Positions 13,906 through 64,000 of a stretch of DNA of 64,000 nucleotides are shown in pieces (position 1 is the first letter of the stretch; each line of letters begins with the position of its first letter). Origin of the DNA: Phycisphaerales bacterium (GTDB taxonomy: Bacteria > Planctomycetota > Phycisphaerae > Phycisphaerales > SM1A02); the NCBI GenBank assembly GCA_022446965.1, contig JAKVBV010000007.1:1-64000 (forward strand), read 5' to 3'. A program made the translations under genes and the position numbers. The notes below the pieces were generated by a model. It did no database searches and was not told where the DNA came from. It worked only from the letters and a program-made list of their open reading frames with translations.

Positions 13906-13920
13906 AGGTGTCTGACACCT
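13906..13920. repeat. 15-bp palindrome at the ispE start (GGTGTC-T-GACACC family)
   Basis: AGGTGTC and GACACCT flank a single T. The palindrome contains the GTG start of ispE and its first codons (Val/Met-Ser-Asp-Thr). Two related 13-mers occur in the tpsB gene and one variant in the atpD downstream region. Confidence 0.7.
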
Positions 13921-56825: not shown

Positions 56826-57512
56826 TCACCCTGGCATGTGTCGCAGTGGGTTGAGTTCGATGTTGTCGCGGCCTGGCACGATCACATCAGCAATCTCGAT
56901 CGCTTCCTTGAACGACTCCAAGGCCTGCTCGCGATTGAAGCACTCGGGCAGCACCTGTCCGGCCAACAAGTGGTCGCTGGTGGCCACAGCGTCGCCCGCA
57001 ATCAGCACGGTGCGTGAACGCTGAGGCAGCAGCAGCCCCGCGGTGCCCGGACGCACACCTGGCAGCGGGAACAGATCGACGCCATCGGCGAGGGCATCGG
57101 GGCAGACCCGCATGCGATCGTGAATCGCTTTGAGCGTGGACATGTATTCGAGCCCACCGTCTTCGGGGTGGTCTTGTGCGGCGCCGAGATCTTCGTCGAG
57201 GGCGTCGGCGGCATTGGCCAGTTCTGTTTCTGAACACAGCCATTGGGCGTTCGTGAAGGCCGCAATTCCGCCAACATGGTCATCGCTGAATCCCGTGCAG
57301 AACACGTGCGTGATGTCATCGGGCGTCTTGCCTGCTCGCTCATGCAGGCGAGCGGCCATCACCTGAGGCGGCAGCGACGGGTCGACGATGATGCACGCAT
57401 CATCAGCTTCGATGAGGGTGGTGGTGGCGTGGGCGGTTCGCACCGCTGTGGATTCGTTCCAAAGCAGGTTGCGAGCGAGGGTGCCGATGGAGATGACGCG
57501 ACAGGTAGCCAT
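56826..57512 (-). CDS. Metallo-beta-lactamase-fold protein, degenerate
   Basis: A 228-residue protein with the alpha-beta-beta-alpha pattern: IIVDPSLPPQ, a metal-site region, PGVRPGTAGLLL, IAGDAVAT and VPGRDN. The family motif T-H-x-H-x-D-H is reduced to TGFSDDH, losing two His ligands, and PGHTPG is PGVRPG. It may not bind two metals. Start taken at 57512. Confidence 0.75.
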   Translation of the reverse strand: MATCRVISIGTLARNLLWNESTAVRTAHATTTLIEADDACIIVDPSLPPQVMAARLHERAGKTPDDITHVFCTGFSDDHVGGIAAFTNAQWLCSETELANAADALDEDLGAAQDHPEDGGLEYMSTLKAIHDRMRVCPDALADGVDLFPLPGVRPGTAGLLLPQRSRTVLIAGDAVATSDHLLAGQVLPECFNREQALESFKEAIEIADVIVPGRDNIELNPLRHMPG

Positions 57513-57585
57513 GGCGTGCCATTGTCTCGCCTTGATGGCGCATGCACAACTTGCCCTGCATGCTGCGGGCGGGTACCAAGGTGGC

Positions 57586-59490
57586 ATGTTGTCCTTGCTT
57601 TGCACCTTGGCCCTGTTGCAGACGCCCCAGTGGCAGACCTGGGCTCAGCCCATCACAACCGCCTCGGCCGCCATGCGAGCCAAGATCCCTGTCGTGGATC
57701 AGGTGGTTGTGGTGCCCGACATGCCCACCATGCTCGATGAATTGGGCAAGTGGTCGCCGGCGGGGCACTGGCCAATCTTGATCGAGGGTGATCCTCGCAA
57801 CGTGCAGTTTATTCGTCGATTCGCCCCCGCCCGGGTGTTGCGACGCGATCGACATGTTGCGGCTGCCGATGCGGCGGCGGTGGAGTCTGCTGTCGCAGCG
57901 GCATGGGATGTGCCGGTGGGTCATGTGCCAGAGGCAGCGGCGGAGGTGTTGGGCGTTCCCGTTCCGGGCATCGTGCTCGCGGACCCGGGCAACAGCGCAC
58001 GAGGTGGCGCCGCGATGCTTGCAGCCGGACGCGGCCAGCACCTCGGTTGGGTGGCCGGAGACTTCGGCCGAAGTGGCGGTCGCTTGACGCCCGCGCAAGG
58101 CCGTGCGTTGTGCGATGCGGTGGAAGCCGCATGCGAAGCCACCGGTGCATCGTGGAACGGACTCGGTGACGCCATCGACACCGTCACGCTGTGCCGGGAT
58201 CTTGCAGCCCGAGTAGAAGGCGGCGAGCGATCGAATTCGGACAACCTTTCGAACCCACCGGCACTCGCCGTGACGGATGTCGTGGGGCGGCATGCAGACG
58301 GACGTCGCTGGGCGTGGACAGGCTGGATCTTTGGTGATGCCAAGTCGAGCGTGTGGCAGGCCAACTGCAGTTTGTTCTTGCCGCGAACGCGAGTGTGGTT
58401 GGGAGACAGTTATCCAGCCCAGCCGCCGTGGACCACTTGGAAGCTCGCAGCCGCCGCAGACGTGTTCACGGCCGAGGGCTACACCGTGCAGATCACGGAT
58501 CCACTGACGCCGGACGCACTCACTCGTGCAGCGACCGACGGTCTCGATGCCGACCTGGTGATGATGGCGTCCAAGGGCAATGCCGATTTCTTCCGACTTG
58601 CCGGCGATATTGATGTGGACGCATCCCAAGTCCCCGTGTGTCGAACACCCGCTGCTGTCTACATGCTGCACTCATGGAGCTTGCGTGCACCGTATGACGT
58701 TCGCACTGTCGGCGGGCGATGGTTGGGCAATGGGGCGTATGCAGATGTCGGCTCATCGCAAGAACCTATGTTGCAGGCTTTCGTACCGCCGGAGTTGATA
58801 GCTAAGCGTGTGTCCAAGGGCATTCCCTGGCTGATCGCCAGTCGGTATTGGCCGGGCACAAGTGGTGCTGCGTCGAATCCGTGGCGGATCAACACCATCG
58901 GAGATCCGCTCATGTTGGCGCCGGCGCCCGGGACGTCGAACCGTCGCAAGATCCAGCCCGAGGGTGAACCCGGTGCCCAGTACACATCCATGCTGCAGAT
59001 TGCGCAGGACGCATTGAAGCAGGCAGCTGTGGCGGCCTCGGATGATGTCTTCGCCGAGGGCATTCATGCTGCGGTGATGGCCAATCGCCAGACACTGGCC
59101 ATGCAGATCTACAGTGTGGCCCAAGGACACGCAGCTGCAGGCCCCAAGAGTGCTGCGGCGGTGCTTGCCACGGCGGCGTTCAATGGCAAGATCAACATGG
59201 TGCTGCATGCGGCGACGACCATCGGCACGCTGTCTCGCGGTCAGGCCGATCTGGTGTGGGCAGTGGGCGCGCCCAAGTTGGCCGATGGCACCGCGGACGC
59301 GACGCTCATCCACGTGCTTCGCTCGTGCATCGATGCGACACAGTCTGCAGGTCGGGTGCGGCTGCTCGCGCAGGCCATGCGCTCAACGCAAGGTGCATTG
59401 GCCGCCTCGAAGATGATCGAGCACTTTCTGGCGCAGGCGAAGTCGGCCCGCCAGAAGAAGGAACTGCAGAAGATCTTGTCAGGGGTGTAG
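57586..59490 (+). CDS. Secreted hypothetical protein, weakly gingipain-like
   Basis: A 634-residue product with a short export signal (LSLLCTLALL). No family is certain. The segment about residues 360-440 (YMLHSWSLRAPYDVRT, WLGNGAYADVGSSQEP, INTIGDPLMLAP) weakly recalls C25 cysteine-peptidase folds, but the catalytic Cys-His pair is not evident. The C-terminal 170 residues are Ala-rich helices. Start at 57586 rather than an upstream methionine. Confidence 0.6.
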   Translation: MLSLLCTLALLQTPQWQTWAQPITTASAAMRAKIPVVDQVVVVPDMPTMLDELGKWSPAGHWPILIEGDPRNVQFIRRFAPARVLRRDRHVAAADAAAVESAVAAAWDVPVGHVPEAAAEVLGVPVPGIVLADPGNSARGGAAMLAAGRGQHLGWVAGDFGRSGGRLTPAQGRALCDAVEAACEATGASWNGLGDAIDTVTLCRDLAARVEGGERSNSDNLSNPPALAVTDVVGRHADGRRWAWTGWIFGDAKSSVWQANCSLFLPRTRVWLGDSYPAQPPWTTWKLAAAADVFTAEGYTVQITDPLTPDALTRAATDGLDADLVMMASKGNADFFRLAGDIDVDASQVPVCRTPAAVYMLHSWSLRAPYDVRTVGGRWLGNGAYADVGSSQEPMLQAFVPPELIAKRVSKGIPWLIASRYWPGTSGAASNPWRINTIGDPLMLAPAPGTSNRRKIQPEGEPGAQYTSMLQIAQDALKQAAVAASDDVFAEGIHAAVMANRQTLAMQIYSVAQGHAAAGPKSAAAVLATAAFNGKINMVLHAATTIGTLSRGQADLVWAVGAPKLADGTADATLIHVLRSCIDATQSAGRVRLLAQAMRSTQGALAASKMIEHFLAQAKSARQKKELQKILSGV

Positions 59491-59813: not shown

Positions 59814-60013
59814 TAAATCGGTCCTTCAGTCAGAGGTCAGTCGTGGACTGCTGGTGATTTCGGGTCGAAATGGGAGCCACTTCAGTTGGATGTCCGAAAT
59901 GTCTGTACCCGCAACGGCTTGAATGCGTCCGCAGGTGGCCCCTTGACGGGGCGTGCCCGCCCGGCGAGGCTGCTTGCGGCTTGTTCCCACACCCTCTTGG
60001 TGCCGTCGTCCCA

Positions 60014-62488
60014 ATGCTCCGTGTTCGTCTGTTGTGTGTCGTAGTGCTGTTTCTAGGGGCGGCTGTCGCATCTACGCAGGCGGCCGTGCTGGAGCCGGTG
60101 CAGCATGTGCGGGTTGTATGGGGGATCGACGCCCCCTGGCTGCCGTCGTTGGATTCAACGTGGGATGCGCCCTTTGTGCTCAAGGGCACGGCCGACGGGT
60201 GGGCTGCTGGAGCTCCGGGTGAACCTGGCATTCGAACAGATCTCAAGGCGCTGTCCTTGCAGGGGGCCACTCGGTTGGAACCATCGGCGATCGATGCCAT
60301 CGCCGCGGCGATCACAACCGCGGTGGCAGATCTGGGGCTGATGGGTGCCACGGTCACGGCGATGGCCGTGGACGGTGATGTGCGAACAGACCGGGTCCTG
60401 TGGTTTGTGGTCGCTGTGCCACTGCCCGATGTCCAGCCCAATCTGGTCTTGCCCTCGACGCTGCGGCCGTTGGGCGCAACGGTGTCAGACACCATTGCGG
60501 AGCCGGAGCCAGCGCCTGAACCTGAACCAGAGCCCGCGACGGAACCGGAACCAGAGCCGGAGCCAGAGCCGGAGCCAGAGCCGGAGCCGGAGCCAGAGCC
60601 TGAACCCGAGCCTGAACCCGAGCCTGAACCAGAGTCCGCACCAGAACCGGAGTCAGACACGGTGTCTGACACCTTTTCGTACCCGGTGTCTCCCTTCACG
60701 GTGGCGTATGCCCCGCCGCATCGAGACCTTCCGCAGATCGAAACCTACCTGGACATGCCCTTCATGCTGCAGGAGGTCGATGGCATCTGGTCCGCGGCCA
60801 CCGATCCCGACGCAGCGACACAGTGGACCCTGCTCGCATTCAACGAACTGGGCGTTCAGCAGGTCAGTGACAGCGCGATCCTCACGATCGTGACCACCTT
60901 GGCCGATCGGCTGCTGGCCCTTGGGCTGCAGGGTGTAAGTGTGGCCCCTGATCCGCGGCAACTGGTCACCGTCGGGCCTGAAGCTGGCCGGGATCTCCGT
61001 GCAGACACCACCGAACTTCGATTGCTCATTCGTGTGGGTCGTGTGACCGAGGTGCGAACGCTCGCCAGTGGTGACCGCATCGATGAATCGAAGCGGATCA
61101 ATCACGCGTCACATGAGCGCATCAAGAACGAGTCCCCAGTGCAAGTGGGTGAAGACGCAGATCACCTCGGCGGTTTGATCGTCGGTGAAGACCTGCAGAA
61201 CTATCTGCACTTCCTCTCTCGGCATCCCAACCGTTCCGTGGAAGCCTCTGTTGCGGCGGCCAGTCAGCCCGGTGGTGTGGCGCTCGATTACATCATCAGT
61301 GAGTCGAAGCCGTCCACCTTCTGGTATCGCATGGGCAACGACGGCACGGCCAGCGAAGGTTGGATACGCCAGCAGGCCGGCTGGTTCACGTCGCAGCTCA
61401 CGGATTCGGACGACATCCTGCAACTGCTCTACGCCACATCGAACTTCGACAGCACGAATGCTGTCAATGGTTTTTACGAACGACCTGTGGGGTGGGACGG
61501 ACGACTGCGGGCGCGCGTGTCGGGATCGTGGAGTCAGTACTTCGCCGATCAGTTTGGTGTCACTGTGGTGCCCGATGCGTTCAGCGGCGTGTCGTGGTCA
61601 GGCAGTGCAGAGCTTCGCGCCAACGTGCATCAATCGGGCGCTCGGTTCATCGACCTCATCGGTGGCGTGCGGTACCAGTACGTCGACACCAAGAACAACT
61701 CCATTCCGGGCCTGCCCATCGTGGCGTCGGGCGACTTCGTCATCCCCTACGCATCACTCCAATTGGAGGAGATCGGGCCGTTCTCTGCCCTGCAAGGCAG
61801 CATCGGAATTGAAGGGGCGGTCAATGATCAGGGCAATGTGGATGGCCTCGGCCGGTTCAACGCGGATGACCAATGGGCCAAGGTGAACTGGTCGGTGTTC
61901 GCGAGCACCTTTCTTGAGCCACTCATTCACGGCGATGATTGGCGAGACCCGTCTTCGCCGGAGAGTTCCACACTCGCGCACGAATTGCAGGTGCGGCTCG
62001 GCGGGCAGTGGGCCATGGGCAACCGGCTGCTTCCGCAGTTTCAACAGGTGGCCGGCGGGCCGACATCCAACCGCGGCTATCCCGTGTCTCTGGTCGCCGC
62101 CGACAGCGCCGTACAGGTCACAGGTGAGTACCGATTTCACTGGCCCCGCACCTTTGCCCCGGATCCCGAACCGGGCGAGCTCTTCGGCGAACCCTTCCGT
62201 GCGTCGCGGCAGTTCGTGTACGGCCGACCGGACTGGGATCTCGTGCCACTGGCTTTCGTCGACGCGACCTGGCTCTTCCAGACCGGCAATCAGGTGTTCG
62301 AGCTGGACAATACGCTGGTCTCCGCGGGCGTGGGCCTCGAATTCGTGCTCAAGCAGAACATCAGAGCTCGGATCGACTGGGGCTTTGCCCTTCGCGATGC
62401 CTGGGGGCCCGGGCCCGGTGGCTCCAGAACGCTGCTGTATGAGTCCGGGAAAAACAGGCTCTACGGGTCATTCACGATTTACTTCTGA
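60014..62488 (+). CDS. TpsB-type outer-membrane transporter (ShlB/FhaC family) with Glu-Pro hinge
   Basis: An 824-residue Omp85-superfamily protein. The signal peptide is [18 protein letters not shown]. Residues about 30-140 and 225-360 are two related modules with POTRA-like features. Between them is a Glu-Pro-rich hinge (about residues 163-213) flanked by TVSDT. The beta-barrel from about residue 390 to the end finishes in Phe (SFTIYF). A RGYP motif ([10 protein letters not shown]) near residue 690 corresponds to the conserved loop of the family. The exoprotein gene lies 116 bases downstream. Confidence 0.85.
60481..60493. repeat. Palindrome GGTGTCAGACACC (left edge of the hinge)
   Basis: A 13-bp palindrome around a central A, in the TVSDT coding segment just before the Glu-Pro repeats. 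Confidence 0.7.
60500..60650 (+). repeat. Low-complexity GAGCCG/GAGCCA hexamer repeats
   Basis: About 150 bases of degenerate 6-base units encoding alternating Glu-Pro, interrupted by Ala and Thr. It is in frame within the TpsB gene, and the same stretch gives a Ser-Gly frame on the opposite strand that is not a gene. Confidence 0.9.
60652..60673. repeat. Nested palindromes GTCAGACAC-G-GTGTCTGAC and GGTGTCTGACACC (right edge)
   Basis: A 9-bp-arm inverted repeat (60652-60670) overlaps the 13-bp palindrome 60661-60673. It encodes SDTVSDT at the end of the Glu-Pro hinge, matching the left-edge copy. Confidence 0.7.
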
Positions 62489-62604: not shown

Positions 62605-64000
62605 ATGCGTCAGCACCGCGCTTCGCTCGCCATCGCCAGAGGTCCATTGGCCGCCCTTGCTGCGGCAATGTTCACGTGCGCCGTCACGGCCACGCCTGAA
62701 AATGGCGTGTTCATTCACGGCGTGGGCACGATCACCTACGGCTCAGACACCTGGATCGATCTTTTCGGTGATCAGTTCATCATCGGGTGGGACGACTTTG
62801 ATCTCGCTGCAGGTGAATCGGTCACCTTCAACGGCACCGACTTCACCGTGCTCAACACGATCAACACCGGTGCGCCCTCGAACAGCTGGATCATTGATGG
62901 CGCGATCAATGCGCCCGGCGGCGAAGTGTGGTTCGTGAATCCTGCTGGGGTGCTGTTCGGGCAGAACTCGGTCATTGATGTGGGCGGCATCATCGCTGCG
63001 GCAGGATCCATAGATAACGACGCCTTCCTCTCAGGCAATCACGAGTTCACGCTCACCGGGGACGTGTTCTTCGGTGGCACCATGGCCTCGTCCATAGGCA
63101 TGGCTGATCGCGCCGTGTTCCTGGGCCAGCACGTGACGAACACCGGCCTTGTCTCCGCCAACATCATCGCGATGGCGTCGGGCAGCACGATCAGGCTCAT
63201 CGACCTGGAAACACGGATCTCGCTTGAGGTGGACACCACCGCGCTGGATTCCGCCACGCCGAACGAAGCCTCGATAGCTTCGATGCAAGGCCAGGCCTTT
63301 GTCACCAATCACGGTCGGCTTGAAACCGGACAAGGCGGGCAGGTGTTGCTCGCTTCGGGCGACATGCTCGGCGCCATGCTGCCTTGGGACGGCTTGGCCA
63401 TCGAACACGATGGCGAGATCCACTCCGCTGGCGGCGATGTGGACATCATCGCGCTCGACGGTGCCATCCGAACAGACCAATACGTGGCCGGCGGAAACGC
63501 CCACGTGGCCCATGCGGGCCTCATCGATGTGTCGTCCAATGACGGTGGCGGTGATGTCACGATCACTGGCCCGAGTGTCGTGGTCGGCAGCGACCTGCAC
63601 GCTCAGGGTGGATGGTCGGGTGGCGGTGGAGACATCGCCCTGCGGGGATATCACACCGTGATGCTCGCAGGCGACGAACTGGTCGGGTGGAACGACGAAG
63701 CCGCAGGGCACACGGGCGCCGCGGGCCTTTCCGTTGGTGCCGGTCACGGCGACCACGATGGTGGATCGATCTTTATTGAGGCGACCGACGGCACGGTGGT
63801 GGGTGCGTCCACCGCCGCAGTCACAGCCTTGGGCGGTCTCTCGGGCGGCAATGGCGGCACCGTGGAGGTGATCGGCCAAGGGCTGCAATACAACAGCCGT
63901 ACACGAACCGACGCCGTCAACGGTCAGGCGGGCGAGTTGCTCCTTGAGACCGCTGGCGATCTTCGCATCACGGCCGACGGCAGCGTGGGCGATGCAAACT
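62605..64000 (+). CDS. TpsA-type filamentous haemagglutinin-like exoprotein, 5' portion
   Basis: An open frame of 465 residues that runs off the window. The signal peptide ends near AAAMFTCAVTA. The TPS secretion domain follows, with the family hallmark NPAGVLFGQNSVIDVGGIIA at about residues 113-132 (cf. NPNGI motifs). Beyond it are repeats rich in Gly and Val (GGQVLLASGD, GGDVTITG, GGSIFIEA) typical of a parallel beta-helix. An SD (AGGAGAGG) precedes the ATG. The upstream TpsB is the expected transporter. Confidence 0.9.
   Translation, partial: MRQHRASLAIARGPLAALAAAMFTCAVTATPENGVFIHGVGTITYGSDTWIDLFGDQFIIGWDDFDLAAGESVTFNGTDFTVLNTINTGAPSNSWIIDGAINAPGGEVWFVNPAGVLFGQNSVIDVGGIIAAAGSIDNDAFLSGNHEFTLTGDVFFGGTMASSIGMADRAVFLGQHVTNTGLVSANIIAMASGSTIRLIDLETRISLEVDTTALDSATPNEASIASMQGQAFVTNHGRLETGQGGQVLLASGDMLGAMLPWDGLAIEHDGEIHSAGGDVDIIALDGAIRTDQYVAGGNAHVAHAGLIDVSSNDGGGDVTITGPSVVVGSDLHAQGGWSGGGGDIALRGYHTVMLAGDELVGWNDEAAGHTGAAGLSVGAGHGDHDGGSIFIEATDGTVVGASTAAVTALGGLSGGNGGTVEVIGQGLQYNSRTRTDAVNGQAGELLLETAGDLRITADGSVGDAN

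Follow-up and report, generated by a model that had tools for sequence, protein, structure and literature searches.

The window analyzed here (the whole stretch of 64,000 nucleotides) comes from a MAG of 2.24 Mb that belongs to a family of Phycisphaerales, and its named relatives are mostly marine MAGs (ALOHA and Arabian Sea, for example, by isolate names). Near its end, a tpsB gene (60014..62488, + strand) encodes a protein of 824 amino acids including the signal peptide. The reading frame is open from 59870, and the ATG at 60014 is the likely start, since a convincing signal peptide follows it and the first module comes at once thereafter, as in relatives. The signal peptide (60014..60082, + strand) was inferred by eye, and a signal-like segment lies directly ahead of the N-terminal module in the relatives too. 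Six further parts follow on the same strand. An extra POTRA-like module, a duplicate of POTRA1 that we call N1 (60098..60427; sequence and profile alignment, predicted fold), makes up the N-terminus of the mature protein and ends in a C-terminal tail with the motif LPxxLxPL, which sequence comparison also finds on tip modules of lipoproteins (60425..60475). A tether then follows, a Glu-Pro run of 54 residues (residues 162-215; 60497..60658) recognized from the sequence and its DNA repeat. The predicted model places the usual TpsB copy of POTRA1, which carries the family's N-terminal hairpin extension, at 60680..61063 and POTRA2 (strand-helix-helix-strand-strand) at 61040..61303. The remainder is an Omp85/TpsB-type beta barrel (61304..62485; predicted model, Foldseek, VIA-align), with the RGY of the L6 loop signature at 62072..62080 (alignment of 29 rows).

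Directly downstream lies tpsA (62605..64000, + strand), which encodes the partner substrate and its TPS secretion domain and whose open reading frame runs beyond the window to about position 66525 of the contig. In domain searches its product matches PF05860 (E 5.7e-14) and TIGR01901 (E 9.4e-13), and the gene stands immediately 3' of tpsB here and in nearly all relatives whose contig reaches that far. Directly 5' of tpsB, a protein of about 670-700 residues (window 57388-59490) is kept in place in the genera g1, g37, g38, g31 and g40; its sole family match is a weak one to TIGR03790. A Gly-Ser-rich frame of 289 residues on the minus strand (59830-60699) is the Glu-Pro repeat read in reverse and very likely no gene.

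The core of the window protein (POTRA1, POTRA2 and barrel, from 60680 on) was predicted by AlphaFold2 with a pLDDT of 86, and the model shows an Omp85-type barrel after two POTRA domains, in keeping with the 16-stranded barrel and POTRA pair that mark a TpsB. Its top Foldseek matches are FhaC (4ql0, E 1.4e-21) and CdiB (6wim, E 7.8e-20). VIA-align superimposes it over its whole length on FhaC 59-554 (Z 25.5, rmsd 6.8, 441 residues), core model residue 1, the start of POTRA1, being aligned to FhaC residue 59, and likewise over its whole length on CdiB 6wim (Z 25.4, 460 residues). The L6 signature is present as R465-G466-Y467 in core alignment numbering, invariant in all 29 rows, and reads NRGY here and VRGY in many relatives. 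Searches of the window protein with Pfam ShlB (PF03865) and POTRA_2 (PF08479) gave no match to either. Unlike FhaC and CdiB, it is too distant in sequence from these two models for a call; PF03865 was matched by 28 of the 29 aligned relatives (best E 1.9e-12), and PF08479 went unmatched in the Pfam search of aligned family members. Searches of PDB sequences with the core and N-module profiles matched no POTRA protein, and the matches to uS3 in that search were set aside as short. The family also carries [GS]NxGT after strand 1, and the PDB sequence search meant to align this motif with FhaC residue by residue returned no match. Together, the structural matches in Foldseek and VIA-align, the ShlB matches of the relatives and the adjacent tpsA identify the protein as a TpsB, and we are nearly certain that it is a two-partner secretion pore of the FhaC/CdiB type. 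It resembles FhaC of Bordetella pertussis and CdiB in its POTRA1-POTRA2-barrel core, in the RGY of L6 and in its next gene, a tpsA whose product has a TPS domain. By family membership, this pore would export TpsA across the outer membrane.

The first-pass annotation, made from the sequence alone, had proposed that two segments in the N-terminal part align in order and represent an internal duplication. Both segments are there, at positions about 20 residues higher than it gave: the repeat starts at residue 52 (APFVLKG) for the N-module and at residue 248 (MPFMLQE) for POTRA1. BLASTP of the N-module (residues 24-159) against the POTRA1-2 region gave 28% identity over 72 gapless residues, with an E of 3e-6 that holds for one single comparison. 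The Smith-Waterman score was 81, against 33.2 +/- 5.8 for 2000 shuffles of the N-module (maximum 69), so that none of the 2000 shuffles scored as high. An HMM-HMM comparison of the two halves, which had been suggested as a check, agrees with both: profiles built apart from 15 N-modules and 22 POTRA1 domains align with 99.6% probability (E 7e-24, 103 columns). Because this alignment spans 103 columns, the repeat is broader than first quoted, at about 110 residues. A profile of N1 alone, run against the genomes, reached POTRA1 of the same protein (E 3e-10) and also POTRA1 of many other TpsBs of the family. Against POTRA2 alone the local score was 26, whereas shuffles in the whole POTRA1+2 comparison average 33, and the module was therefore copied from POTRA1. 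The shared end strand with DVR and DLR did not hold up and is a coincidence: POTRA1 domains conserve DLR (with an invariant D105 and R107 in POTRA1 alignment A2), the N-modules do not conserve DVR, and both triplets sit in the loop ahead of the last strand.

With a pairwise identity as low as 28%, and with matches to TonB and PARP families that stem from the Glu-Pro run alone, the similarity of the segments might be put down to chance or to low-complexity matching aided by that run. However, the run was excluded from the compared segments, no shuffle reached the observed score, the profiles from separate rows agree, and the two segments share the same predicted fold. These tests rule that explanation out. 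The N-terminal module is a real duplicate of the protein's own POTRA1.

The AlphaFold2 model of the N-module (pLDDT 87) has a strand (8-13), a short helix and strands 31-36 and 39-42, followed by strand 50-52, helices 54-60 and 67-83 and strands 90-96 and 105-111. The last five elements follow the beta-alpha-alpha-beta-beta order of a POTRA domain, whose two helices lie against one face of a three-stranded sheet; an N-terminal hairpin is added to them, and the main elements of POTRA1 in the core model follow in the identical order. In VIA-align, POTRA domains account for all 50 matches listed, among them BamA POTRA4, TamA, CdiB, TpsB4, cyanobacterial Omp85 and Toc75. The best are BamA POTRA4 chains (Z 7.0, rmsd 2.9, 81 residues), where a Z under 8 would by itself be weak to middling. 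Given the uniform list of POTRA matches and the homology to POTRA1, we find the POTRA fold of the module convincing despite this Z. Foldseek against single PDB chains gave weak matches, the best again being BamA POTRA4 (E 0.11); Nudix chains in its list had a probability of 0.10 or less, were absent from the VIA-align rows listed and were discarded. Pfam POTRA models matched none of 15 N-modules, and the link of the module to POTRA domains runs through its own POTRA1, which Pfam likewise leaves uncalled. The different folds that would have spoken against a duplication were thus not what the models and the VIA-align list gave. By analogy with other POTRA domains, of which polypeptide binding is a property, the module may bind polypeptides, for example by beta-augmentation.

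Between the two copies, a Glu-Pro spacer of about 50 residues had been noted, and the run of 54 residues bears this out. At the DNA level it is a repeat with a period of 6/24, and the relatives in g1, g37 and g38 each have a single long linker of 41-145 residues that is Pro-rich and in most cases acidic. In a polyproline-II helix, with about 3.1 Å per residue, 54 residues would extend to about 17 nm at most, a length that could allow the tether to cross a planctomycete periplasm. The run does not make the protein a relative of TonB, of PARP or of the tau subunit of DNA polymerase III, matches to which are compositional only; the TonB match (E 2.5e-5) spans the Glu-Pro run alone. At both ends of the run (window 60481-60493 and 60661-60673) we also observed the palindrome GGTGTCWGACACC, which encodes VSDT there and recurs at 13907-13919. 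The genome holds 14 such sites, several of them followed by TTTT, versus 0 for a reversed control. The TpsB loci retrieved from relatives do not contain the palindrome, and a literature search on it returned nothing relevant.

Module number differs among the relatives. In genus g1 there are two modules (N1 - linker - POTRA1), in g38 three (N1-N2 - linker - POTRA1) and in most of g37 four (N1-N2 - linker - N3-POTRA1), and most other TpsBs of the family have POTRA1 only. N2 and N3 are more divergent yet recognizable (N2 vs POTRA1, E 2e-11; N3 vs N1, E 5e-8). Synteny of the locus extends over g1, g37, g38, g31 and g40, of which g31 and g40 lack extra modules. In the tree of the core, g31+g40, g38 and g1+g37 form three strong groups whose branching order is not settled. 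In the tree of the modules, which rests on 135 columns, N1 modules and g37-type lipoprotein modules form one group with moderate support (81/92), apart from POTRA1 (99/98). The simplest reading of the trees is that N1 was gained once, at an orthologous locus, in the ancestor of g1, g37 and g38, and that more modules would have been added later in two of them. For the missing N1 of G001 the most plausible cause is that the assembly broke within the linker repeat, because the N-module (C28) and the core (C129) are there two pieces at contig ends. In G137, a second TpsB frame of 641 aa matches from POTRA1 on only, so that one genome can have such a pore with the module and another that lacks it. 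Two distinct TpsB loci of G140 (L052, L053) both have extra modules, which paralogues or mixed strains may explain. TpsA partners of the multi-module TpsBs in the three genera have about 1040-1880 aa and those of some single-POTRA1 TpsBs more than 3300 aa; more modules do not go with a longer TpsA, which rules out that the extra modules scale with its length.

A further reading is that the extra module and its tether do little. In Phycisphaerae, POTRA1 might be prone to duplication and Pro-rich repeats might grow by slippage, module and tether being tolerated as a neutral elaboration. Extra POTRA1 copies indeed arose independently in TpsBs from elsewhere in Phycisphaerae (L145, L125 and L117/L119/L120/L150; the L145 protein, of Phycisphaera sp. 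RI_212, has three modules, and the duplications in L117/L119/L120/L150 come without a Pro-rich tether). The DNA of the linker is repetitive and varies in length, and few folded parts change faster than N1: between the window protein and that of G002, identity is 44% for N1, 53% for POTRA1 and 68% for the barrel. However, wherever the contig reaches the syntenic locus in g1, g37 and g38, the orthologue there has kept N1, with identity down to 25-45%. Its approximate dN/dS of 0.17-0.36, rough because dS is near saturation, is well under 1 and indicates a constraint weaker than that on POTRA1 and the barrel, and the module has also been placed at the tip of two other proteins. We therefore regard neutral elaboration as improbable.

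These two other proteins, also matched by the N-module profile, are unrelated lipoproteins rather than TpsBs. The first (type 1; loci L204, L047, L049, L050, L197 and L201) has about 200 residues and a lipobox seen by eye, occurs in 159 of 181 genomes of the family, and is normally a frame of 200-300 residues. In g37 only, the frame runs on into a linker rich in Pro that ends in an N1-type module at the C-terminus. The window genome has the short form (G000:C47:75252-75839, L204; a 226-residue frame). A copy in G001 (C58) was set aside, as it is nearly identical to a g37 copy and G001 is 7% contaminated. The second (type 2) has about 500 residues, occurs in 112 of the 181 genomes and normally has about 480-570 residues; its Pro-rich extension bears two modules in G001 and one in G002 (L044 3752-6784, L045 2156-4681). 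Profiles of N1 and of the lipoprotein modules match with an E of 4.5e-26. Both kinds of module share a private tail, approximately VPLPxxxxNxx[LI]PxxLxPL, which is absent from N2, N3 and POTRA1. Tailed lipoproteins are confined to lineages with an N1 TpsB, which are related genera and hence not independent observations, and lipoprotein orthologues elsewhere have neither linker nor module.

We propose that N1 is a docking POTRA on a pore with a duplicated POTRA1, a reading that joins the identity of the protein with substrate capture and that we hold to be reasonably probable. The tether would keep N1 away from the outer membrane, where it could bind an extended polypeptide or a periplasmic partner, raise the local concentration of the ligand at the pore and pass TpsA on to POTRA1 and POTRA2. 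Since the POTRA domains of FhaC bind the extended TPS domain (PMC5422565), TpsA capture is the first candidate for the mechanism; we regard it as a serious possibility, falling somewhat short of probable. Weighing against the proposal are the lower conservation of N1 relative to POTRA1 and barrel, which suits a changing ligand but also a loosely constrained appendage, the TpsA lengths, the weak Foldseek match of the N-module, the moderate tree support for the group of N1 and lipoprotein modules, and the second TpsB frame of G137 that lacks the module. The addition of an N1-type module to two unrelated lipoproteins suggests that the module probably has a ligand of its own, independent of the barrel.

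As these lipoproteins have no pore, the module on them also makes docking to an envelope partner a close rival of capture. In that case the N-module would serve to fix the pore, and in relatives the two lipoproteins, to one common partner. Peptidoglycan, a peptidoglycan-synthesis complex or a protein of the inner membrane could be that partner, and the Pro-rich tether would bridge the distance to it. The position of N1-type modules at the ends of Pro-rich linkers on two unrelated lipoproteins, in N1-TpsB lineages only, is in keeping with this, as is the tail motif common to both, and the type 2 gene adjoins an lpoB-like gene, which would encode an activator of peptidoglycan synthase (PF13036, E 1.1e-13). 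However, this adjacency is one gene neighbourhood in one genus, domain searches matched no known peptidoglycan-binding family, and the window genome has an N1 TpsB without either tailed lipoprotein, so that the partner there would be another protein. We consider envelope docking less likely than not as an alternative to substrate capture. A wider version of our proposal, in which N1 is a portable periplasmic docking domain, a POTRA detached from its barrel and displayed on Pro-rich tethers, through which the pore and the independently recruited lipoproteins bind one ligand in a capture system across the envelope, is equally tentative.

The position of the module at the N-terminus raises one more alternative. 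In reviews and structures, TpsB proteins have two POTRA domains, the helix H1 and a short linker (PMC5422565, PMC7644211). Module and linker could replace the plug helix H1 of FhaC and its linker, the N-module folding onto POTRA2 or the mouth of the barrel and keeping the resting pore closed until TpsA binds. The module does occupy the position of H1, the linker after H1 in FhaC runs along POTRA2 and is required for secretion (PMC5422565, PMC7644211), and neither the N-module nor the core model of the window protein contains a plug-like helix ahead of POTRA1. H1 itself is dispensable for FhaC activity (PMC5422565). Yet a folded domain of 110 residues is too bulky for the pore, the close orthologues of g31 and g40 have neither the N-module nor an obvious H1, and the copies on lipoproteins have no pore to plug. 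A plug is accordingly a quite improbable role for the module.

The tethered docking POTRA that we favour has partial counterparts in known systems. BamA and TamA are generally described with their POTRA domains in succession, without long disordered spacers. With five and three POTRA domains, respectively, they resemble the window protein and its relatives in having more than two ahead of the barrel; unlike in BamA and TamA, one or two modules here sit on a Pro-rich tether and the neighbouring gene encodes a TpsA substrate. Unlike FhaC, which has H1 and a linker of about 30 residues in that place, the window protein has a tethered N-terminal POTRA, and unlike in FhaC and CdiB, there are up to three extra modules in relatives and an N-terminal hairpin extension on POTRA1. 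The likeness to the envelope proteins TonB and LpoB, whose linkers present a C-terminal domain on the far side of the periplasm, concerns the manner of working only, a folded domain displayed at the end of a long Pro-rich or disordered tether: no homology of the folded domain was found, and the anchor here is an outer-membrane pore. The order is domain-tether-anchor in the window TpsB, whereas it is anchor-tether-domain in the lipoproteins. In a survey of 12,869 Omp85/TpsB proteins (PMC4104836), the TpsB barrel occurred in no additional domain architecture, and FtsQ was named as the sole further protein with a POTRA domain. The first-pass remark that descriptions of FhaC-type proteins usually lack such an arrangement is in line with this survey and with a review (PMC5422565). 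In the open-access literature, outside which many papers lie, we found no description of a tethered or repeated POTRA1 in a TpsB, and searches there for planctomycete TPS and for POTRA lipoproteins with Pro-rich linkers gave no such architecture. Together with the two or three extras of relatives and the same tip domain on two unrelated lipoproteins, the tethered extra POTRA suggests a docking device new to the descriptions of TpsB-type pores.

In summary, this lineage repeatedly adds copies of POTRA1, hangs them on a tether and puts the same module on lipoproteins. If the proposed capture across the envelope is true, it would be a system peculiar to these marine Phycisphaerales. A single locus whose orthologues have zero to three extra modules forms a natural test set for the way in which an unfolded substrate is captured by POTRA domains and delivered to the pore.
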